Of a stretch of DNA of 35,964 nt, positions 7,832-29,464 are shown in pieces; the first letter of the stretch is position 1; the number at the start of each line of letters is the position of its first letter. The position numbers and the translations under genes were made by a program. The notes below the pieces were generated by a model, which did not search any database, was not told the origin of the DNA, and was given only the letters and a program-made list of their open reading frames with translations. Source of the DNA: a virus; the IMG/VR virus record IMGVR_UViG_3300027659_000103, positions 1-35,964 of that record; one strand, 5' to 3'.

Positions 7832-10585
7832 TCATACCACGCTGTTCAATCTTTGTCTAAGATAAGCGCACTCTAAAGCCAAAGCTTCTTCGTAACGAAT
7901 ACCATATCTACTGCCAGCGGCTTCAAATTGTTGAACAACTCCTACACCTTCTTCAATTTTCTCTTCTTGTTCTTCCCACTCATCATAACAAAGAATACCG
8001 TATGCAAAAGGATCAACACCTTCAGCCTCAAATGCTTCCTTAACTCTCTGAGCAACTAACCCAATATGCCATCTAGCCCCGTCACCTTTTTTCACAACAG
8101 CATCTTTAAATTTAAACTGCTGATATTCAACATTACCCCAAGCCCGCAAAACTGCTTCATTGATGTCGCCAATTTGTTCTTTTTCTCTTTCATCAGATGT
8201 GTTAATAGTTCCTGTTGTTGCATAAACAATTGTCCATCTGCGTGATGGACCTCCAAGAGTATATTCGTCATCAGTTCTTGGGCGTAAAGTTTGTGTATCC
8301 GTATTTGAAGCAAAGAAAGTTACTGTTGCGGTTCCGTCAGTAGTTGTACCTCCGGTTGCTTGGATTCTTGCATCATAATCGTTTACCGCCTCAGCATTAC
8401 CTGAAGTATGGAGATCCATAGTCCAAGTTGCCGCAGTGTTTTGTTTACCAAGTTCCATTGTTCCATCGGCACGAATAAGTGCTGAACGCTGACTAGAAAT
8501 GTATGCATCAATAACATTCGTGCCGCCTGTGTAATACAAAGCAGTATCTGCATCATCTACTCTTAAACCAACAAAACCTGAACCACGAGCAACAAAGAAA
8601 CTTTGAACTTTATATGTACCAAGATTCACGGCATCAAAACCCCACACATAGTGTGAACCACCAGAAGCGGCAGTTGACGCTTCCTTGTTATCAACAAGAC
8701 CCAATTCAAAACCAGTCATTGCTGATGCATGCGATGAAGCATCCATTAAAACATTTGCATTATGTGCCCACACTTTTGTGAATGGGTTTACATAAGCAGT
8801 TGCTGATCCAGATGGTGTAGAAGCAGATTGAACTGTGCCGTTGGCGAGATACCAACCCTCAACCGTGATGCTTGAACCATTTGCTGCCCAATCAGTGATA
8901 AATCCGCTGTACTTTGTTGGACTGTGAGCAGTATCAATAATCATTCCCTTGCGCAACAATTTTAAATTTGTAGAACTTATTGCTGAAGCCGGAACAACTG
9001 TAGTAGCAGTATATGTTGCGCCAGCCAATGTTAATGTTGGTGCAGGGGCGTATACATCAGCAAACATTGAAACAGCATCCCTGTCTGTATAGGTAGAAAG
9101 ATCTGCTTCATTTGCTAACCCAAGAACTTCGGCGGCATCATTATAATTTGAACCATTCGGATACAAACGAACAGCAAATCCGGTTGCATTATCTTCATTA
9201 CCAAATGGCGCTTGCGTAATTCTTTGCCCATGACGAAGAATCTCGCCATTCAAATATTCTGGATTTAAGATGCGAGCACCTCTATCTAGCACCCAAATAA
9301 CTTCACGCCCACCTGTATCCACTAAAGTTGATAAAGCATAAACACCATCTGGGACTGTTACAAAAACAGAATTAGCTCTTGTAATGCCGTTATCAGAAAA
9401 AGTTACAGCCCCAGTTCTTGCTTGAGCAGCATTAGAGAAAGCGGTGGTGTTATTTGTTGTTCCGTCACCAACAGCACCATAATCAGAAACCGATACTGGC
9501 AAAGATGTTTTACTAACCTTAAGATCTAAACTTGTTACAACTGCTGGTTCAACAGCAATTGTTGAAATAGAACCAGCCATTGAGCTGTGATACTGGCAAG
9601 CATAATAAAGCGTATCTGGTGCATTTTGCGGAAGCTCTACAATGATTGTGCCATTGTCTGTTCCCCCGTTTGTAACACCTGTGCTGTAAACACTGCCTGA
9701 TGCATATCCTCCAGAAACCGTTTGAATCCAAAATGGATGGCCTGATGCATTAATTATAATTTTATATCTTTTACCTTTTACAAAATGAATAGTCCCATTA
9801 GAAACACCATTAACTAAATACGCACCACTTCCGGAATTAGTAATATAATAATCAATACTGTTATTTAATTGTGTTTGAATTGCCGAAGTAACACCGTCTA
9901 AATATCCAATCTCGGTATCCGAGACATTAGCGACAACTGCTTGTTTATTGTTTAACTGAGTCTGAATAGCCGATGTAACGCCATCAAGGTATCCAATCTC
10001 TGTATCAGATACGTTTGCAACGACTGCCTGTTTGTTATCCAATTGTGTTTGAATAGCCGAAGAAACATTATTTAAGTAACTAAGTTCAGTAGATGAAACA
10101 TCACCAATCGTTGTAGTGCTTGGAAGAACAATGTTTCCAGTAAATGTTGAGTTAGCAAGTGTTGCAAAACTGGCTGTAGAAGTTGATGAAGCAGCTGTGA
10201 TTCTGCCTTGAGCGTCAACAGTAATATTTGTAGCTGTATACGACCCTGCTGTTACTGCTGTGTCAGCAAGTTTTGCTGCCGTTACAGCATCATCAGCAAT
10301 TTTTGCTGTTGTGATCGCACTAGCAATAATTTTTGCTGCTGTTACAGCATCATCAGCAATTTTTGCTGCTGTTACTGCTGTGTCAGAAATTTTTGCTGTT
10401 GTGATAGCGCCAGCAGCAAGTTTTGCTGTTGAAATAGAACCATCAGCAATATCATTTGAAGTTATGGCTGCAGACGCAACTCCAGTATCTGCAATCCAAG
10501 CTGTGCCATTCCACACCCATATACGAGATCCGGCAGTAAAAACATCATTTACAGCCGGAGAGTTAGGAAATATGATAGCTGGCAT
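7832..10585 (-). CDS. Long tail fibre with cupredoxin-like insert and S74 chaperone
   Basis: 917 aa. Parts in order: docking module (1-32); AVTAAKIADD repeats (45-120); copies of NVSDTEIGYLDGVTSAIQTQ (about 163-241); a small domain (245-345) with GHPFWIQT (His283) and YYACQYHSSM (Cys330, His333, Met336) resembling a blue-copper cupredoxin; YGAVGDGTTNNTTAF (369-383), the opening of a pectate-lyase-like beta helix; a long beta-rich region; and a C-terminal peptidase S74 intramolecular chaperone. The S74 part starts TSDEREKEQI, with self-cleavage expected before Ser797, and ends in a coiled helix. The chaperone trimerises the fibre and then cuts itself off. The ATG overlaps the upstream stop (TAATG). 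Confidence 0.8.
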   Translation of the reverse strand: MPAIIFPNSPAVNDVFTAGSRIWVWNGTAWIADTGVASAAITSNDIADGSISTAKLAAGAITTAKISDTAVTAAKIADDAVTAAKIIASAITTAKIADDAVTAAKLADTAVTAGSYTATNITVDAQGRITAASSTSTASFATLANSTFTGNIVLPSTTTIGDVSSTELSYLNNVSSAIQTQLDNKQAVVANVSDTEIGYLDGVTSAIQTQLNNKQAVVANVSDTEIGYLDGVTSAIQTQLNNSIDYYITNSGSGAYLVNGVSNGTIHFVKGKRYKIIINASGHPFWIQTVSGGYASGSVYSTGVTNGGTDNGTIIVELPQNAPDTLYYACQYHSSMAGSISTIAVEPAVVTSLDLKVSKTSLPVSVSDYGAVGDGTTNNTTAFSNAAQARTGAVTFSDNGITRANSVFVTVPDGVYALSTLVDTGGREVIWVLDRGARILNPEYLNGEILRHGQRITQAPFGNEDNATGFAVRLYPNGSNYNDAAEVLGLANEADLSTYTDRDAVSMFADVYAPAPTLTLAGATYTATTVVPASAISSTNLKLLRKGMIIDTAHSPTKYSGFITDWAANGSSITVEGWYLANGTVQSASTPSGSATAYVNPFTKVWAHNANVLMDASSHASAMTGFELGLVDNKEASTAASGGSHYVWGFDAVNLGTYKVQSFFVARGSGFVGLRVDDADTALYYTGGTNVIDAYISSQRSALIRADGTMELGKQNTAATWTMDLHTSGNAEAVNDYDARIQATGGTTTDGTATVTFFASNTDTQTLRPRTDDEYTLGGPSRRWTIVYATTGTINTSDEREKEQIGDINEAVLRAWGNVEYQQFKFKDAVVKKGDGARWHIGLVAQRVKEAFEAEGVDPFAYGILCYDEWEEQEEKIEEGVGVVQQFEAAGSRYGIRYEEALALECAYLRQRLNSVV

Positions 10586-11013: not shown

Positions 11014-11949
11014 TTAAAAGGTGATGCTTCCAGATGCAGTAAACGTATAGACTCTGTAACCCGTTGGATTCGTTACGGTTGGAGATCCGGTTGTTGCTGT
11101 TGCAAGCGGAAAGGTATCGGGATAACGAAGAATGACAACACCTGAACCCCCAGCGCCTCCGCCAGCAGTCCTAAATTGTGGTGAGCCTTCACCACCACCG
11201 CCACCGCCTCCACCTCCTGTATTAGCTGTTCCAGGGCTACCAGCAACAGATATGCCAGATGTTCCTGCTCCTCCACCTCCAGAACCACCAGAACCAGAAG
11301 AGCTGTACCCGCCAGCGCCACCGCCGCCCGCTCTAGTCACGGATGAACCAGTAATAGATGATGCAACTCCAGTACCACCAGTTAAAACATTGCCAGCAGC
11401 GCCTGCACCTCCACCGCCGCCACCTCGGTTGTTCTGAATTCCATTTGCCCCGCCAAACCCTTGATTTGCCGTTCCCGCCGCAGCCACTTGCTGAGAAGGT
11501 TGGTTAGTACCTCCACCGCCTCCACCGCCACTACCACCTACAACAGGGACAGCATTTTGCCCACCTGCACTACCGCCTCCAAGTGATGTTATTGTAGAAA
11601 AAACAGAATTAGTGCCAGAACCAGAAGCCGAATAACCACCTGCTGGATAACTTCCTGCGCCTACTCCGCCAGAGCCCACAGTTACAGTGTAGGATACGCC
11701 AGAAGATATTGAAAAAATTGATTCGGCAGAAGCGCCTCCACCAGATGTCGCTCCTGTTACATTTGTACGGTAGCCTCCAGCGCCTCCGCCTCCACCGCCT
11801 CCGCTATCTCCACCGCCTCCTCCTGCAACAACAAGGTATTCAACTGATGAAGGTGCCATTGCAGGAAAATTACTTCCCATCTGCGCTATTCTTTGTTGCT
11901 TTAAAGACCAACGACCATAAGCAGAAGAAGAAGAAGGGAAATCAGCCAT
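11014..11949 (-). CDS. Glycine-rich fibre protein A
   Basis: 311 aa. The N-terminal module MADFPSSSSAYGRWSLKQQR is shared with the next gene upstream. Then come VEYLVVAGGGGGDSGGGG and a Gly/Ser/Ala-rich domain to about residue 275, the conserved GGSGVVILRYPD, and a C-terminal segment ending TNPTGYRVYTFTASGSITF. That segment is nearly identical to the end of the product of 11949-12890. The two genes are tandem duplicates with divergent Gly-rich centres, as expected for receptor-binding parts under selection. The start overlaps the upstream stop (TAATG). Confidence 0.65.
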   Translation of the reverse strand: MADFPSSSSAYGRWSLKQQRIAQMGSNFPAMAPSSVEYLVVAGGGGGDSGGGGGGGAGGYRTNVTGATSGGGASAESIFSISSGVSYTVTVGSGGVGAGSYPAGGYSASGSGTNSVFSTITSLGGGSAGGQNAVPVVGGSGGGGGGGTNQPSQQVAAAGTANQGFGGANGIQNNRGGGGGGAGAAGNVLTGGTGVASSITGSSVTRAGGGGAGGYSSSGSGGSGGGGAGTSGISVAGSPGTANTGGGGGGGGGEGSPQFRTAGGGAGGSGVVILRYPDTFPLATATTGSPTVTNPTGYRVYTFTASGSITF

Positions 11950-12890
11950 TAGAAGGTTATACTACCAGAAGCGGTAAATGTATAAACTCTATAACCTGTT
12001 GGGTTTGTGACTGTTGGTGAACCAGTAGTTGCTGTTGCTAATGGCAAACTATCTGGATAACGAATAATAACCACACCCGAACCGCCGCTACCACCGAATG
12101 TGCCTGTGTTATAACCTGGGTCAGTGTTTGTCTTACCGCCACCTCCACCGCCAAGATTTACTGTACCTGCCGTACCCGATGAAGGAACTCCAGCACCGCC
12201 TGCACCACCACCACCAGCACCACCAGCGCCTGGGGTGTTTTGCGAGTCACCAGGTCTAAATCCTCCACCACCGCCACCGCCACGAGTTACCGAGCTGCCT
12301 GTAATGCTTGATGCTGAACCTGCACCACCAGCACCGCAAGTAGCGCCACTAACATTGCCACCAATAGCGCCAGCACCACCACCACCACCACAACCACGAC
12401 CTCCACTGGAACCGCCATTAAACCCTTGAACAGGTGAAGCCGTGCGAGTTCCGCCACCAAATGAACCTTCACCTACACCGCCACCACCTGAACCACCGCT
12501 AAGACCAGCAGAAGCGCCAGTAGCACCACCACCGCCACCAGTGGAAGTAATTGATGCCAGAACAGAGTCGCTACCGTTGCCACCAGCGCCTGGGTTATTC
12601 ACCGATGCTCCTCCAGCGCCAACTGTGACTGTATGGGCAACACCTTTTGCAAGCACTAATGCTGTTTCTAAAGTTCCACCACCACCGGTTGCAGTAACTG
12701 TGCTACGCAAACCGCCAGCACCACCACCACCGCCACCGTAAGTATTATTGCTACCAGCACCACCGCCAGCAAGAACTAAATAATCAACTGTTACTGCCAT
12801 ACTAGGCCAATTACTACCACTTACGGCAATGTATTGATCTTTTAAATCCCACACTCCACTTGCTGAAGATGCGGATGGAAACTGTGCCAT
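11949..12890 (-). CDS. Glycine-rich fibre protein B
   Basis: 313 aa. MAQFPSASSASGVWDLKDQY at the N-terminus, VDYLVLAGGGAGS at about 33, a Gly-rich domain, GGSGVVIIRYPD, and the same final 30 residues as its tandem neighbour. A GAGGAAA purine stretch lies upstream within the end of the preceding gene, and the start overlaps that gene's stop (TAATG). Duplicate adhesin tips suggest alternative or heteromeric fibre ends; this is inference. No enzyme motif seen. Confidence 0.65.
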   Translation of the reverse strand: MAQFPSASSASGVWDLKDQYIAVSGSNWPSMAVTVDYLVLAGGGAGSNNTYGGGGGGAGGLRSTVTATGGGGTLETALVLAKGVAHTVTVGAGGASVNNPGAGGNGSDSVLASITSTGGGGGATGASAGLSGGSGGGGVGEGSFGGGTRTASPVQGFNGGSSGGRGCGGGGGAGAIGGNVSGATCGAGGAGSASSITGSSVTRGGGGGGGFRPGDSQNTPGAGGAGGGGAGGAGVPSSGTAGTVNLGGGGGGKTNTDPGYNTGTFGGSGGSGVVIIRYPDSLPLATATTGSPTVTNPTGYRVYTFTASGSITF

Positions 12891-13243
12891 TAGCTAATTT
12901 CCTCGTAGGAGCACACCGCCTCAAGGTCAGAGTTTGCTGATGCTGTTAAACGAAGAGAGTCACCCTCTTCTAGATAGAAAGATTTGTTAATAACATCTAA
13001 AACTGCATCAGCTGGAACAACAACGGTGTTCACGATACGATATGCAGTTGATGAACGAAACAAATCAATGGTAACATCTGCGTTATTTGTTCCGTCAACA
13101 TTTGATACATAAAGAGCATTAACTTTAAAAACTTTTCCTGACGCACCACTGTTTGTAACGATTGCTGTTGCAGAAGTCGTTACAGCAAGAACTGCTGTTT
13201 TGCCCGTAATTGTTGCTACGTTTACTATATTTGGTGCTGCCAT
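12890..13243 (-). CDS. Small beta-rich virion protein
   Basis: 117 aa, starting MAAPNIVNVATITGKTA, rich in Val, Thr, Ala and Asn with alternating hydrophobic residues and a short acidic end (CSYEEIS). The pattern VFKVNALYVSNVDGTNNADV resembles phage head or tail proteins with a jelly-roll-like fold (compare 14055-14390 and 18380-18631). AAGGAGA precedes the ATG. It is likely a virion accessory protein; precise place unknown. Confidence 0.55.
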   Translation of the reverse strand: MAAPNIVNVATITGKTAVLAVTTSATAIVTNSGASGKVFKVNALYVSNVDGTNNADVTIDLFRSSTAYRIVNTVVVPADAVLDVINKSFYLEEGDSLRLTASANSDLEAVCSYEEIS

Positions 13244-13255
13244 AATTTCTCCTTG

Positions 13256-14062
13256 TTAACCGAAAACAATCGCCATAGCGATTGCTTTACCCGTTGACGC
13301 TTTTGTATCCAACTGTGTTTGAATAGCAGAAGTTACACCGTCAAGATAACCGATCTCTGTGTCGGAAACATTTGCAACAACTGCTTGCTTATTGTTTAAT
13401 TGTGTTTGAATAGCTGAAGAAACGCCATCAAGATAACCAATTTCGGTATCCGATACGTTTGCAACAACTGCTTGATAAACCGTTGGTGTAGCCCACTCAA
13501 GACCTGTTGCTGTACTAGAATTTGCTCTTAAAACAGTTCCGTTTGCACCAACTGTTAATTTTGAAACAGCGTTATCAGCTGTACCAGCAAGCAAATCACC
13601 TTTTGCATCAATAGTGTTTAATATAGAGTCAACAGGAGTAAAACCTATCTCAACCCAATTATTGCTATAATAAACAAATGTTGCGCCAGTAGATGAATCA
13701 TACCAAATTTGTCCAGCAATTGGGTCTGCTGGAGCTGATGCTGAAACTTGAGCAGCCATTGCTGTTCCACCCAACTCAACCCAATGTGAATCATAATAAG
13801 TAAACGATTGAGCAGTGTCGGAATCAAACCACATTTCTCCTTCAATCGGAGAAGCTGGCGGAGAAGAACTTACAGTTACCGAAGTGATTCCTGAACCTGA
13901 ACCGATTTCAACCCATTGAGAATCATAATAAACAAAAGTTTTACCGATATCTTCATCAAACCATAATTGACCAACCTCAGCAGAACCCGGCGGGTTTGCT
14001 GAAACAGTAGCACCGCTTACAACTGCTACATCAACTAAAGTTTGGCCGGTAAGATTAGGCAT
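13256..14062 (-). CDS. Tail-fibre protein with triple WFD repeats
   Basis: 268 aa from the ATG at 14062, overlapping the upstream stop by 8 nt; a GTG three codons earlier is possible. Three repeats of about 38-45 residues follow the form PPGS-EVGQLWFD---GKTFVYYDSQWVEIG. Then come a linker (DAKGDLLAGTADNAVSKL, a common fibre motif) and two copies of NVSDTEIGYLDGVSSAIQTQ. These last repeats are shared with the 917-aa fibre. It is probably a fibre shaft or connector protein. Confidence 0.65.
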   Translation of the reverse strand: MPNLTGQTLVDVAVVSGATVSANPPGSAEVGQLWFDEDIGKTFVYYDSQWVEIGSGSGITSVTVSSSPPASPIEGEMWFDSDTAQSFTYYDSHWVELGGTAMAAQVSASAPADPIAGQIWYDSSTGATFVYYSNNWVEIGFTPVDSILNTIDAKGDLLAGTADNAVSKLTVGANGTVLRANSSTATGLEWATPTVYQAVVANVSDTEIGYLDGVSSAIQTQLNNKQAVVANVSDTEIGYLDGVTSAIQTQLDTKASTGKAIAMAIVFG

Positions 14063-14390
14063 ATTCAACACCGCTGACTGTGAATGTTACGGCATTAGCT
14101 GTTACCTGATCTACATGTAATTTACTGTTTGCCGGGATAACTACTGAAGTGTTATAGAACACAACATTATTTGACAACACATTAACATTACTCAAAATTT
14201 TATTATTAGCTGCAGGGGTAGCAGCACCTACAAGAATATGAATACTGCACACAGCGTTAGAGCTGGTTGTATTACAAAGGTTAATGTTTTTGATAATTGA
14301 ATAATTTCCTACAGTATTAGCTGTAGTGTAAACATTAGAACCCGTAGAACTAGTTCCTATATAAAAACTTTTTGGTGTTAGATTGGCCAT
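14055..14390 (-). CDS. Small beta-rich virion protein
   Basis: 111 aa: MANLTPKSFYIGTSSTGSN, then a hydrophobic/Thr-Asn-rich pattern ending VTFTVSGVEYA. Composition and length resemble the product of 12890-13243. A GGGGGT purine stretch in the end of the preceding gene lies close before the ATG. It is part of the structural operon after the capsid gene. Function not recognised; a virion accessory or stabilising protein is likely. Confidence 0.55.
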   Translation of the reverse strand: MANLTPKSFYIGTSSTGSNVYTTANTVGNYSIIKNINLCNTTSSNAVCSIHILVGAATPAANNKILSNVNVLSNNVVFYNTSVVIPANSKLHVDQVTANAVTFTVSGVEYA

Positions 14391-15560: not shown

Positions 15561-16607
15561 TTACAAAGTACGAATTTTTACGTTCTTACCAATTACATAA
15601 GAATCTGCATTTTCAATGTTAGCTGCAACCCTCATGTACTGAGTGTATTCAATCGTATCTGTCTTTGGCTTAAACTGACGATAAACCGTAATGTCTCGGT
15701 GGATACCGATAACACGGTTGTTCGGGAATGTAAGCTCAATGTGCGAGTGATTACCACTAGCACCAGAGTAATCGCCACTAGCGCTTTCTGGCGTAAGAGG
15801 TACCTCAACCAATGGAATACCAAATGGTGAAAGACCAGTTGAACCAGCACCGCCATTAGCCTTCATAGAGCCTTGGAAGAAAGCTACATCGCCAGTTACT
15901 GACCCTGGTGATGCTGCGCCAGCCGTTGATTCCGTTGCTGAGTTTGGATTGCCAAGACTATAAATTGCATCCTGCACTGTATTTGGACCAGTAAAGAAAC
16001 GAAGTTCGTTACGGCGTTGCAAATACTTAGTTGGCATCTTACGCAAAACTTTGTCAAAAACAGAGCGTGATACGTTAACACCAGCCAAATCTTGAACTTG
16101 TCCACTAGCTTTTGAAAGCTTAATGAAACCATCAAGAGCCTTAAGAAGACCGTTGTTTGACGATGTATTGCCGCTGATGAACAAGTCATCCAAATCATTA
16201 GCTGTTTGACGAGCCATAATCTGTGCAATGTGATCTTCAAGAGATGCACCCTCAATGTTGTCTTCAAGAGACTCTGTTGAAATATTCCAATCAAGACGAA
16301 GTTTGACTGTTGAAAGCGAAACTTTTGCAAATGTTACTGCTGCGTTTGCACCATCATCAGTTGCTTCTGTTGCCAGAGCAAGAAGTCGTGTTCCGACAGA
16401 TACTTTGTCAATATCCATCTGTGGAGTCTTCATACGAACAACTCGTGCATTCTTCATCAAAACCGATTGATCTACTACGAAATCCAAAAATCGGTTTGAT
16501 TGCTCTGGGTAGAGCAAGCCACCACGACTTGGAACACCGGCGCTGTTTGCAACAACAGCGGTAGTTACTTCATTAGCTTTCGCTAAAATTTCTTCTTGTG
16601 TTGCCAT
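15561..16607 (-). CDS. Major capsid protein, HK97 fold
   Basis: 348 aa. The N-terminal helix region (TQEEILAKANEVT) is followed by LYPEQSNRFLDFVVDQSVLMKNARVV, the E-loop/P-domain type start, TEATDDGANAAVTFAKVSLSTVKLRLDWNIS (strands and A-domain), ARQTANDLDDLFISGNTSS (P-domain helix) and VYRQFKPKTDTIEYTQYMRVA near the end. This is the usual order of HK97-like capsid proteins, and the gene follows portal and protease. GGGAGGA lies 8 nt before the ATG. A terminator directly follows. Length is within the family range. Confidence 0.85.
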   Translation of the reverse strand: MATQEEILAKANEVTTAVVANSAGVPSRGGLLYPEQSNRFLDFVVDQSVLMKNARVVRMKTPQMDIDKVSVGTRLLALATEATDDGANAAVTFAKVSLSTVKLRLDWNISTESLEDNIEGASLEDHIAQIMARQTANDLDDLFISGNTSSNNGLLKALDGFIKLSKASGQVQDLAGVNVSRSVFDKVLRKMPTKYLQRRNELRFFTGPNTVQDAIYSLGNPNSATESTAGAASPGSVTGDVAFFQGSMKANGGAGSTGLSPFGIPLVEVPLTPESASGDYSGASGNHSHIELTFPNNRVIGIHRDITVYRQFKPKTDTIEYTQYMRVAANIENADSYVIGKNVKIRTL

Positions 16608-18651: not shown

Positions 18652-20283
18652 TTACTTGACCGAATCATTGTTCGTTCCAGAATCTTGGTTTTCCCCTCTT
18701 TCGGCTTGAGCGCCATCAGCACGGGGGTCGCTTGTTGCGCCATCTCCAGTTGGAGACTTTGGTGGTTCAGATGCAGAATTGTTTGAATTTCCAACAGGAG
18801 CGCCAGGGTTTGCTATATTGTTTTCAATTTCTTCTTTTTTAATATTTGTTGGGAATGGCAAGACATCATCGCCATCATATCTTTCAGGCAAACCAATTTG
18901 ATTTCTAACCTCATTTGGTGTCAAAACTTCTGTTCTTAAATATCTATCATTAATTCTAGATTGAATATCTTCATCAACCAAATCAATTTTCTTAAGATGA
19001 ATAGAAAGTAAATCAGTAAACTCAGCAACAATTCTGTTAAGTTTTTTTTCAATAATAGATTGATCTGGTCCTATCACTTGCATTTTAAAACTCTTGTCAG
19101 CATCTCTTGAAACAGCCAAGTTTGCATTATCGTAAACTCCAACTTTTGGAGCGGGAACCCTGTTTGCTACTAAAATTTCATCTCTATTAGATTTGCGATA
19201 TTTATCAAATGAAGCATCTTGAACACCGGCTTCTAGTTTTTCAAATTTTATATCAGTATTTGAACCAAGACTTGCCGGAAGGGGTATCACTAATGTTCCA
19301 TGATTCCTGCCCTTTACTTCATTTCTAAAATAATTAATTAACTCTTGTTTTGATTTATTACTAAGCTTTGCGCCTTTTAAAATAATAGCATAACGAGGAA
19401 TTGCTTTGTTTTCAAAATAATCAATATTATATTCTTTAGCAAATTTGTCTCCAACAATTGCAGCCGCGGCAGAAACCGCAGCGGGAATGCCGTAATAATT
19501 ATTGTTTGGAGAATAGATTTTAAAATGAATTAATTCATTTGGTTTTGAATCATTATTAATCGGGTCTGGAGTCTTTGTGTCTTGAAATTGTCTAAAAAAT
19601 ACTGCTTGAATTTTATTTGTTTTTGCAATTTGTACAAAACCATCTCGTTTTCTGCGCACCCTTACAAGGGTTGCTGGAACATGGCCAATATACCCTATTT
19701 TCCCAGAATTGTTTCTACCTATTTCAAGATAGCCATTGCCAACAGCTAAAACATCTTGCCAAACACGAACTAAAGTTTCAATCAATGTTTCTTCAACATT
19801 TAATTTTTCAAAAATTTCATCCATTTCTTCTTTTAGATCTTGATAGCCCTGTCTAATTTTTAATATTTTTTCATCATTACCCTGGGCTTTTTCCATTTTT
19901 CTTTTTGCTTTTAATGTTTCTACAAATTCATAACCAAGACCAACTGTGTTCATTACTCTTGCGTTGATAGAAGCATAATGTATTGCGCTTTGATCATACA
20001 AACCGGCCAAAATGTCTAGATCGTAAGGTGGGGTTACAATGTCATATAAAGAATATCCATTGACTACTTCTGGATCTACAAATTTAGATTGAACTCCATC
20101 TTCGCTTTCATATTTTTTACTTAAACGAACAGCTTTTCTTTTCATTTTTGGAGAAAGATTTTCAATTTTTACAAAATTAAATGGGTCCGTTGTTTCAGTT
20201 TTATTTGCAAAACCCATGTATGTAATATCGTCAAGTTCATCATCTAACAATATTTCTTCTACAACTTGCATTTTGTTTTCCAT
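18652..20283 (-). CDS. Portal protein
   Basis: 543 aa. A portal core is seen: YDLDILAGLYDQSAIHYASINARVMNTVGLGYEF, a wing region with VLAVGNGYLEIGRNN, RVRRKRDGFVQI, then YFENKAIPRYAIILKGAKLSNKSK, NHGTLVIPLPA, KFEKLEAGVQDASF and NRDEILVANRVPAPKVGV, all typical of PBSX/HK97-type portals. The C-terminal 60 residues are low-complexity (Asn, Pro, Gly, Asp), possibly the part facing the capsid lumen. AAAGGATG precedes the ATG. Twelve copies form the DNA entry channel. No terminase gene lies upstream, which is unusual. Confidence 0.85.
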   Translation of the reverse strand: MENKMQVVEEILLDDELDDITYMGFANKTETTDPFNFVKIENLSPKMKRKAVRLSKKYESEDGVQSKFVDPEVVNGYSLYDIVTPPYDLDILAGLYDQSAIHYASINARVMNTVGLGYEFVETLKAKRKMEKAQGNDEKILKIRQGYQDLKEEMDEIFEKLNVEETLIETLVRVWQDVLAVGNGYLEIGRNNSGKIGYIGHVPATLVRVRRKRDGFVQIAKTNKIQAVFFRQFQDTKTPDPINNDSKPNELIHFKIYSPNNNYYGIPAAVSAAAAIVGDKFAKEYNIDYFENKAIPRYAIILKGAKLSNKSKQELINYFRNEVKGRNHGTLVIPLPASLGSNTDIKFEKLEAGVQDASFDKYRKSNRDEILVANRVPAPKVGVYDNANLAVSRDADKSFKMQVIGPDQSIIEKKLNRIVAEFTDLLSIHLKKIDLVDEDIQSRINDRYLRTEVLTPNEVRNQIGLPERYDGDDVLPFPTNIKKEEIENNIANPGAPVGNSNNSASEPPKSPTGDGATSDPRADGAQAERGENQDSGTNNDSVK

Positions 20284-20698: not shown

Positions 20699-22627
20699 TT
20701 ATTTAATTGGACAAGCTCCTGTTGAACAATCTTCCATTTCTATGTTTAAAGTGGTTGAAATGTCATTTAAAGGTACTGTTAAATTAATTTTTGACATTAT
20801 TTTGTTATAAACTTCTTCTGTAATTACCTCATAGGGTGGCAATGGGAAATTATGCTCAGAGTGAAGCAGGAAAGATACTGATTTAACATTTTTATCATAG
20901 TTATTAGCTAGCCATTCTTTAATAGCCCCAAGCTCTTCTTTGCGGTAATAAACAGTTACAGAAACCGCATTGTCAGCCCAATCTGTTTGCATTTTTTTAA
21001 CCCATTCAAGCTGCTCAACCGCTGTCATGTTTGCAGCAAGAATTGCGTCTTTTGGAGATTTGCAAGGAAATTCAACAACATATTTTGTATGATCTTCTCT
21101 ACCATCTAGGCCAATGTCCCAAACAACCTTATAACCTCTTTTCCTACAAGACTCAACAAGTGGGTCAACAGAGCTAAACCGAACCCTTCGGATATAATAC
21201 TCTGCAAAAGACGGGTGTATGCCCGGCGTTACGCCTGGAAGTAGCGAAAGGGTTCCAGATGGCTGGATAGTGGTTAGCCTTATTGATTGGTTCCACCCTT
21301 TTTTGTTGCTGTAAGTTTTGTCAAAAGATTTTAAATTCTCATAAACATCTTTTAACCAAGAAATTTGTTCTTTGCTGGATTGCAAAACTCCAGTAACAGA
21401 CTGCCCAAGCCGAGCATTTTTATGTGTAATGTGGTTTGTTTTTTCATAAGGGTAAGACATCCTTGTAATTTGTTTTTGAATCATATATAGTAATTTTGAA
21501 ATTTCTAAAAATTGTGAAAGAGATTCAATATTTGGTAAAAATATTGTTGCAAGATTACAAGACTCTCCATCAGCCAAGGCAATCTCTGCGCATGGGTTAA
21601 ACCCATCAATGCTTTGGTCTAATGATTTTTCACCAAGCCTTCCATAAGTTCTTGCAAGTTTTCTATTTAACAAACCGTAAGGCTCACCAGTTCCATCATA
21701 CCCCTTCCAGAATTCAGGCAGAATTTCATCAAAAGAATCTGCATAAATACTATTGTTTGAATTTGACCTCCAGGCTGGGATGTCTCCATTCCCCCAATTC
21801 TTTGCTCTTAAAAATAAAACATCGTCTGGATCACCAATTGCAATTTGCGCTGAACGGCGTGAAGAACCAGAAACAACTACTCTGCCAATAATGTTGCAAA
21901 TATCAAGAACATCAACTGAGCGAAGTTTTTTGCCAACTCTTTGATTAAATATATTACAAATATCTTTGATTCCATCAACCAGAGCGCCGGGTCCAGATGC
22001 TGTACCGCCAAATGTTTTAACTGGTGCTCCAAACTCACGAATCAAAATAGTTGAGTATGTAAAAGATTTACCAGTTATAAAATAAGATTCAAGGACTTTG
22101 TGAAGCAATTCTCTCCATCCTTGTCTTGAATCAGGAATAATAAAATCAGCGTCTGGTGTTCTTTCTGAAGTGATGTAAGAAACATTTTTTATTTTTGGCA
22201 AATCATGAATTTTTGAACGCTCTACGGAAAAACCAACACCACCGCCAAGCATTAAATAATCAAACAATAATTCAAAGTCTTCAATTTTTTCAATGTTAGT
22301 AAAAAAACAATTATTTAAAGATGTTCCAGAAAATGTTTTTACAAGAGGAGTTCCTAGCTGCCAAAGTGACCTACCCGACACAGAACACTTCAGATTAAAC
22401 ATGTGGTCAAACAAAGTTTCAGCTTCCTTTTGTGTAAAATCAACTCCAATCTCAACAGCGCCATCTATAACTCTTTTGATTGTTTCAATCCAAGTTTCAT
22501 TTCTTCCTAAAAGTTCATTTTTGCGACTATATGTTCGCAAATAAACAACTTCGCCCAAACCGCCAAAGCCCCATGGTGGAGTTTTGGAATAATAGGAATT
22601 AACAAATTCATCAGTTAACAATGTCAC
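20699..22627 (-). CDS. nrdJ: Class II (B12-dependent) ribonucleotide reductase
   Basis: 642 aa, of the monomeric adenosylcobalamin-dependent type. Visible key residues: Cys107 in SLNNCFFTN and Cys357 in GESCNL (the redox pair), Cys346 and Glu348 in FNPCAEIAL (thiyl radical and catalytic Glu), SGSSRRSAQI, TTIQPSGTLSLLPGVTPGIHP (phosphate binding) and the C-terminal CSTGACP shuttle pair (Cys634, Cys639). It reduces ribonucleotides to deoxyribonucleotides without oxygen or a metal cofactor, supplying DNA precursors, and needs host B12 or uptake. GTG start with GGAGG 6 nt upstream, and its own promoter. It is shorter than the roughly 740-aa Lactobacillus enzyme, but all catalytic residues are present. 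Confidence 0.92.
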   Translation of the reverse strand: MTLLTDEFVNSYYSKTPPWGFGGLGEVVYLRTYSRKNELLGRNETWIETIKRVIDGAVEIGVDFTQKEAETLFDHMFNLKCSVSGRSLWQLGTPLVKTFSGTSLNNCFFTNIEKIEDFELLFDYLMLGGGVGFSVERSKIHDLPKIKNVSYITSERTPDADFIIPDSRQGWRELLHKVLESYFITGKSFTYSTILIREFGAPVKTFGGTASGPGALVDGIKDICNIFNQRVGKKLRSVDVLDICNIIGRVVVSGSSRRSAQIAIGDPDDVLFLRAKNWGNGDIPAWRSNSNNSIYADSFDEILPEFWKGYDGTGEPYGLLNRKLARTYGRLGEKSLDQSIDGFNPCAEIALADGESCNLATIFLPNIESLSQFLEISKLLYMIQKQITRMSYPYEKTNHITHKNARLGQSVTGVLQSSKEQISWLKDVYENLKSFDKTYSNKKGWNQSIRLTTIQPSGTLSLLPGVTPGIHPSFAEYYIRRVRFSSVDPLVESCRKRGYKVVWDIGLDGREDHTKYVVEFPCKSPKDAILAANMTAVEQLEWVKKMQTDWADNAVSVTVYYRKEELGAIKEWLANNYDKNVKSVSFLLHSEHNFPLPPYEVITEEVYNKIMSKINLTVPLNDISTTLNIEMEDCSTGACPIK

Positions 22628-28846: not shown

Positions 28847-29464
28847 ATGCCTGAATTAAACGCAAATACTCCAGCAATAGAGTGCTATGTTCGTGGGCAG
28901 TACCTGCGTGATCAGATTGATTCACATGACATTGTTTTCCCGTGTATGATTTTTGGTGTTAGTTCAATTCAAGGCCGGTCCCCGCAATTTCATTTTTTGA
29001 TGGAAGATGGCGGGGTGTGGTGGAGAATGCCAATATCTGCTTTTTGTACAAAACCAAACAGCCCGCATGTGGATATTCACGAATTGGTTTTATGGAACGC
29101 CTTTAGCCCATATGTTGCGGTAACTGAGTTTCAAGCTATGCGTAATATGAAAATGACATATGTTTCTAGGTCTGGCGATTTTGTAAACGGCAAATATTTG
29201 TTTACTCTTGACTGGCATTCACCAGAAGATAACCAGCTTAACGCCGGGTTTAGCACAAGCCCAGGACAGCACAAGTGCGGTCATGTAATTGAGAGAGAAG
29301 ATGGCAATATTGCTATCCAGCCAAACAATAGAATTCGTTTATGGGACCCGTCTTACACAACCAAGAAAGAAACATTAATTCAAAGAAAGATTAATTCCCA
29401 AATGTGGGATGTAGAAGATGCCGACAAGTGGACATCGCCGGACAATGATGATTATGAATATTAA
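28847..29464 (+). CDS. Conserved phage protein of unknown function
   Basis: 205 aa. VRGQYLRDQIDSHDIVFPCMIFGVSSIQGRSPQFHFLMEDGGVWWRMPISAFC and LVLWNAFSPYVAVTEFQAMRNMKMTYVSRSG read like a conserved protein I associate with cyanophages and other aquatic phages, with no known activity. It has a soluble mixed alpha/beta composition and an acidic, aromatic end (DNDDYEY). TAAAAT ends 5 nt before the ATG and no Shine-Dalgarno site is seen, so it may also be made from a leaderless transcript. Confidence 0.6.
   Translation: MPELNANTPAIECYVRGQYLRDQIDSHDIVFPCMIFGVSSIQGRSPQFHFLMEDGGVWWRMPISAFCTKPNSPHVDIHELVLWNAFSPYVAVTEFQAMRNMKMTYVSRSGDFVNGKYLFTLDWHSPEDNQLNAGFSTSPGQHKCGHVIEREDGNIAIQPNNRIRLWDPSYTTKKETLIQRKINSQMWDVEDADKWTSPDNDDYEY

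Follow-up and report, generated by a model that had tools for sequence, protein, structure and literature searches.

A tail fibre protein encoded in the window, that is, the whole stretch of 35,964 nucleotides of viral DNA that was analysed (IMG/VR record IMGVR_UViG_3300027659_000103, positions 1 to 35,964), contains a 104-residue domain of predicted cupredoxin (blue-copper) type, which aquatic tailed phages probably carry as an optional cassette in the surface proteins of their virions. The Cys, the two His and the Met of this domain stay together while most else changes, and from this we infer that the quartet likely forms a type 1 site for one copper. The features described are listed in Table 1.

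Table 1. Positions in the window of the fibre gene, its cupredoxin domain and the related features.
Feature	Position	Strand	Basis
Tail fibre gene carrying the domain, 917 aa	7832-10585	(-)	ORF list; C-terminal part matches PHROGs families of tail fibres and tail spikes
Predicted cupredoxin domain, residues 244-347 (104 residues)	9545-9856	(-)	AlphaFold2, Foldseek, VIA, relatives
His283, presumed first copper ligand, in GHPFW	9737-9739	(-)	Kept in 34/34 aligned relatives
Cys330, presumed copper ligand	9596-9598	(-)	Kept in 34/34 aligned relatives
His333, presumed copper ligand	9587-9589	(-)	Kept in 34/34 aligned relatives
Met336, presumed axial copper ligand	9578-9580	(-)	Kept in 33/34 aligned relatives, one Gln
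Peptidase_S74 chaperone domain of the fibre, residues 797-856	8018-8197	(-)	Pfam PF13884, E 1.4e-14
Cassette: 339-nt stretch missing from related fibres	9523-9861	(-)	DNA alignment with L222, L205 and L208
169-nt repeat encoding SDTEIGYLDG-type repeats, abutting the cassette	9862-10030	(-)	
Further copy of the 169-nt repeat, 67%	9949-10117		
Copy of the 169-nt repeat, 82% identical, in another virion gene	13306-13474	(-)	
271-aa gene, no domain here; L002 and L004 relatives carry the domain	13256-14071	(-)	Shared C-terminal end and flanks
117-aa gene, no domain here; L214 relative carries the domain in a loop	12890-13243	(-)	Alignment

Apart from the domain the fibre is ordinary, with short repeats N-terminal to it. 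A 30-nt periodic repeat (10216-10479, (-) strand) is present in the fibre gene as six overlapping in-register copies, encoding TAAKIADDAV-type repeats. The ligands follow the order His283 and then Cys330-x2-His333-x2-Met336, the last three within one loop; these residue numbers coincide with those given for the 917-aa fibre in a previous sequence-only reading of this DNA.

The structure of the domain was modelled with AlphaFold2 (30 sequences, no templates), with a pLDDT of 95.7 and a pTM of 0.87, and the model has the cupredoxin beta-sandwich fold. Its comparison with the PDB by Foldseek yielded 67 matches at E<=0.001, and the best 50 of these 67 were without exception copper proteins with a cupredoxin fold, mutants and CuA domains being among them. 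The top matches were AcoP (E 1.6e-5), rusticyanin, plastocyanins, laccases and copper nitrite reductases; TM-scores were moderate, from 0.40 to 0.64 by query length among the matches listed, and rmsd values were large. In the VIA comparison rusticyanin was matched with Z 10.3 (2.0 A over 92 residues, 18% identity), and 201 of 998 chains reached Z >= 8. In the secondary structure of the model the Cys lies at a strand end. The loop that leads into the last strand contains the second His and the Met, and the first His is followed by a strand; this is the usual cupredoxin layout. The sequence-only reading had proposed that the tail fibre holds a cupredoxin-like domain with the ligands of type 1 copper proteins, and had asked for structure prediction and comparison with plastocyanin; a confident model that lands on copper cupredoxins supports that claim. 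Among predicted viral structures (BFVD), 60 matches were obtained at E 0.001, those with a name being cyanophage fibre and structural proteins. Lower-ranked viral matches were beta-sandwich proteins of Pithovirus and Marseillevirus relatives (A0A481Z6J5, A0A481YVH3 and others), with E values from 1e-8 to 1e-6.

The retention of the ligands was assessed in several sets of relatives. The seeds of a first scan of viral sequences contained the ligands, and conservation in its 55 aligned rows was left out as evidence. A second scan was carried out with residues 285-328 only, using the ligand-free seeds FWIQTVS and VYS[TD]G[VIT]TN; it retrieved 197 relatives, and the His and the C-x2-H-x2-M motif were present in 80/80 of the best 80 of 197 (51 distinct); most of these loci are on contigs that the first scan had already yielded. 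An HMM search of seven phage records detected 14 copies, down to E about 1e-8, all with the four ligands (14/14), including the copies at E about 1e-8 in which HP is changed to HQ. The quartet was also complete in 16/16 further phage copies, a sample of the phage records matched by two divergent queries, in which the first His was read by eye. Of the cellular loci, 27/29 had all four ligands, with a seed that included the first His. The reading frame of one cellular locus (L106) stops before the Cys. An Acidobacteria MAG relative (L092:4001-4270) has Gln in the place of the axial Met, as in stellacyanin. Thus nearly all of these homologues of the domain do keep all four residues, a point on which the sequence-only reading had made its proposal depend. 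A chance motif was ruled out by the fold, together with the presence of the ligands in relatives retrieved without them in the seed.

In an alignment of 34 phage and cellular sequences, the ligand columns ranked 2, 7, 8 and 14 of 104 by entropy, two of the columns ranked above M336 being occupied in just 10 and 4 sequences; H267, the His of the domain that is not a presumed ligand, ranked 51 of 104. Values of dN/dS were 0.05-0.17 against seven relatives, of which three are near-identical to each other and have high dS. As judged from these comparisons, the domain is under constraint.

Additionally, a link in sequence to known copper proteins was searched for. Pfam and NCBIfam cupredoxin models did not match the fibre domain, and PF00127 (plastocyanin/azurin family), searched over the window, gave nothing, the domain falling short of its curated cut-off. 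On the other hand, a cellular relative from a Flavobacteriaceae genome (L115), which aligns to the window domain at E 2e-14, scored 24.5 bits with PF00127 over its copy of the domain, against a cut-off of 21.2, and 8/34 of the aligned phage and cellular members matched this family at E<=0.1. The profile of the 34 members, compared with PDB sequences, produced 31 matches at E<=10, of which 23 were copper proteins and 8 were not; the best were laccase (0.001) and copper nitrite reductase (0.0019), and amicyanin was found at E 0.21. In the nitrite reductase match its Cys-x2-His-x2-Met was aligned to that of the domain. In the laccase match the first His of the domain presumably lies off the type 1 His of the laccase motif. 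Profile-profile comparison with three cupredoxins recognised by Pfam gave a probability of 91.9% (E 7e-7), with Cys, His and Met lined up and the first His out of line. PF25489 (At5g54830-like domain) matched 15/34 aligned members at E<=0.1 (best 2.2e-5), and it is possible that this domain, named after a plant protein, shares a fold family with the phage module.

The distribution of the domain was determined by tblastn over 50,697 phage records (E 0.001). The number of records matched depended on the query: 19 with the window domain, 40 with a divergent copy from phage Bellamy, 327 with the MA01 domain and 346 with the L065 domain. The oddity of such a domain in a fibre, suggested previously, does not extend to rarity, given the 346 records matched in a single search. 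Most of the matched records were Synechococcus and Prochlorococcus phages, in agreement with the cyanophage fibre family proposed in the sequence-only reading; SAR11 phages, Methylophilales phages and one Actinomycetia phage were also matched. Many of the listed matches were labelled baseplate wedge tail fibre connector, gp9, and the domain was C-terminal in those examined; all seven gp9-labelled proteins among the 16 records examined kept the four ligands. The labels of the carrier protein in the examined records were 'baseplate wedge tail fiber connector', 'tail fiber', 'virion structural protein' and 'hypothetical protein'. Four copies of the domain were found in P-SSM2. Carriers on viral contigs include collagen-like, Mtd_N, C1q and subtilase proteins, and in Synechococcus phage S-H9-1 (L243) and in L176 a subtilisin-like protease is part of the protein that carries the domain. 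The record of Prochlorococcus phage P-HM1 (L247) carries a note assigning PF07686, an immunoglobulin V-set family, to the carrier protein; in that phage the module was perhaps mistaken for an Ig domain.

Relatives of the domain are also present in bacterial genomes. The cellular carriers L090, L096, L115 and L116 have a lipoprotein-like start, by reading of the sequence, and at least one cellular locus, L111, looks phage-derived. A divergent cellular relative, used as the query, had no match in 72,556 plasmid records.

The domain had previously been described as lying in the fibre shaft, and related loci indicate that it is not a fixed part of it. The part of the fibre after the domain (8190-9505), used as the query, retrieved 19 viral loci, and in 18/19 that gene was without the domain. 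The sole locus with it (L204) shares a contig with L001 and is 98% identical in that part. When three of the domain-less fibres (L222, L205 and L208) were aligned with the window as DNA, one clean gap of 339 nt was left. The window has a single copy of the domain. Of the 18 contigs with a domain-less fibre, four had a copy elsewhere and in 14 none was seen, these contigs being possibly fragments. One copy was counted in 43 of the 48 carrier records and two copies in the other five. The predicted fold of the 117-aa protein (12890-13243) had a low pLDDT of 70.6. According to these alignments, the domain is an optional, mobile module. In this phage group it occurs in three or more distinct virion genes, and by homology it is also present in fibre and baseplate proteins of other phages. 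Recombination at the repeats is a plausible way for the cassette to move.

In comparison with known systems, the best structural matches to the phage domain, rusticyanin and AcoP, are cupredoxins of Acidithiobacillus; they are free-standing proteins, with 15-20% identity to the fibre-borne domain, and their Cys-His-Met loops are longer. Plastocyanin and amicyanin (PF00127) share the fold and amicyanin has the same short C-x2-H-x2-M loop, but they are soluble electron carriers, whereas the phage domain is part of a fibre and is without a PF00127 match. The Pro after the first His (HPF) is a feature of multicopper oxidases. Cyanophage gp9 (PHROG 677) has this domain as its C-terminal part (E 4.8e-18, positions 307-407 of the 412 in the profile). 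The full fibre matched PHROG 677 over positions 151-407 of 412 with E 2.6e-15, weaker than the domain alone, and homology does not extend to the whole protein, since the other matches of the window fibre were different fibre and spike families. The Ig-like accessory domains of phages are optional beta-sandwich modules of many virion proteins and are not metal proteins, whereas the listed fold matches of this module are cupredoxins. Metal sites proposed or shown in phage fibres include the HxH iron sites of T4 gp37 and of alterophage tail fibres; these are octahedral iron sites, instead of being cupredoxin sites with Cys and Met (PMC11705849). Borgs are reported to have cupredoxins (PMC9605863).

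Among the matches listed from the open-licence PMC literature, no phage-virion cupredoxin was mentioned in titles or abstract openings, an earlier description being possible. The words 'cupredoxin' and 'copper' are absent from PMC7824862, and copper is mentioned in PMC10665884 only as microscopy film. The fold and the site are of a known kind, and no mention of them as a mobile component of phage virions was met in the listed titles and abstract openings.

The host supplies little free copper to the cytoplasm and the virion is without an obvious electron partner; for these reasons a purely structural, metal-free use is possible. The putative site could be filled with copper around or after lysis, a step that we propose with less confidence. 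Bound copper would fasten the last loop to the remaining beta-sandwich, and the domain, stiff and stable in this form, would serve the adsorption apparatus as a spacer or for adhesion. A fibre or baseplate has to endure in water and to carry load. If copper is bound, this copper-locked stability or adhesion is our first choice for the role, held tentatively; copper bait or capture at the host surface is a rather unlikely role, redox chemistry is no likelier, and a role of another kind is slightly less likely still. In azurin, copper is reported to alter the forced unfolding and to keep about 1 nm of chain from being released (PMC5792602); azurin and plastocyanin are also treated in PMC4532836.

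Two alternatives with bound copper, considered as complete accounts, appear equally improbable. The first is a redox module, in which a working type 1 copper centre of the tail would have as its partner in electron exchange either the host surface or the reactive oxygen of sunlit water, serving as protection or as an adsorption trigger. The full quartet, including the axial Met, in 14/14 and 16/16 phage copies seems to exceed a purely structural need, and the structural neighbours of the domain are electron carriers and oxidases; however, a partner protein or docking surface was not identified, and the optional presence of the module in different carriers does not suggest a fixed electron path. 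The second is a copper bait, comparable to the iron of the Ferrojan Horse hypothesis, in which the metal would draw the phage towards receptors for metal uptake or, more simply, towards groups on the host surface that bind copper. The location of the domain in fibres and baseplates is consistent with it, as are the HxH iron sites of tail fibres, which have been proposed to aid host contact (PMC11705849). On the other hand, the domain is often in a connector or shaft, away from the fibre tip, and one shared copper receptor is unlikely because the carriers infect very different hosts (cyanobacteria, SAR11 and Methylophilales), the head genes of the window being Streptomyces-phage-like.

The least probable alternative is a metal-free beta-sandwich of cupredoxin descent, an Ig-like surface decoration with the motif kept for folding or binding: it would agree with an optional surface module in several genes, resembling phage Ig-like domains, and with the two fn3 domains of a neighbouring fibre-type gene in the window, but the Cys, the two His and the Met are still together at only 32-34% identity (S-H34, Baldr and S-CAM4), which is hard to account for without a metal.

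A wider reading, also rather unlikely, joins these elements: the adsorption apparatus of many aquatic phages, many T4-like marine cyanophages included, would bear working type 1 copper centres and infectivity would be copper-dependent. The particles would leave the cell copper-free and load copper from the lysate or the water, the copper redox state or the locking of the domain would set when the fibre or baseplate adsorbs or fires, and phages would pass a metalloprotein cassette among virion genes.

If copper is in fact held by the site, a large number of marine phages, and probably also of those in lakes, are copper proteins; this would matter for the stability of virions, for their contact with hosts and for the chemistry of trace metals. 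This claim is testable, as the carriers include phages isolated on cultured cyanobacteria (syn9, P-SSM4, S-RIM2, P-SSM2 and Bellamy), and related fibres with and without the module constitute a natural comparison. The C-terminal domain of gp9 also gains a fold and a likely cofactor.

With regard to the host, PF00124 (Photo_RC) was detected in 0/48 records including that of the window, many of them fragments, while the control Synechococcus elongatus was matched; a cyanobacterial host for the close relatives is thus without support. The capsid protein (15561-16607, (-) strand) and the portal protein (18652-20283, (-) strand) were nearest to those of Streptomyces phages, with 51% and 46% identity, respectively, and for this reason an actinobacterial host is possible. 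The record is part of a viral metagenome collection and, in contrast to the capsid and portal, the fibre domain was nearest to cyanophages among named phages. A search for tRNA genes found none in the window.

A class II (B12-dependent) ribonucleotide reductase was identified by Pfam at 20699-22627 ((-) strand); the nearest phage copies were from an uncultured Caudoviricetes of Manatee Spring (48% identity) and from Maribacter phage Panino (45% identity). A 205-aa protein (28847-29464, (+) strand) matched PHROG 3704 'ferredoxin' at 3.7e-51 and no Pfam model at E 0.001; it is possibly a second redox protein of the phage, or the label is doubtful. Two adjacent glycine-rich virion-type genes (11014-11949 and 11949-12890, (-) strand) are of similar length and have identical C-terminal ends, the second of them matching PHROG 2295.
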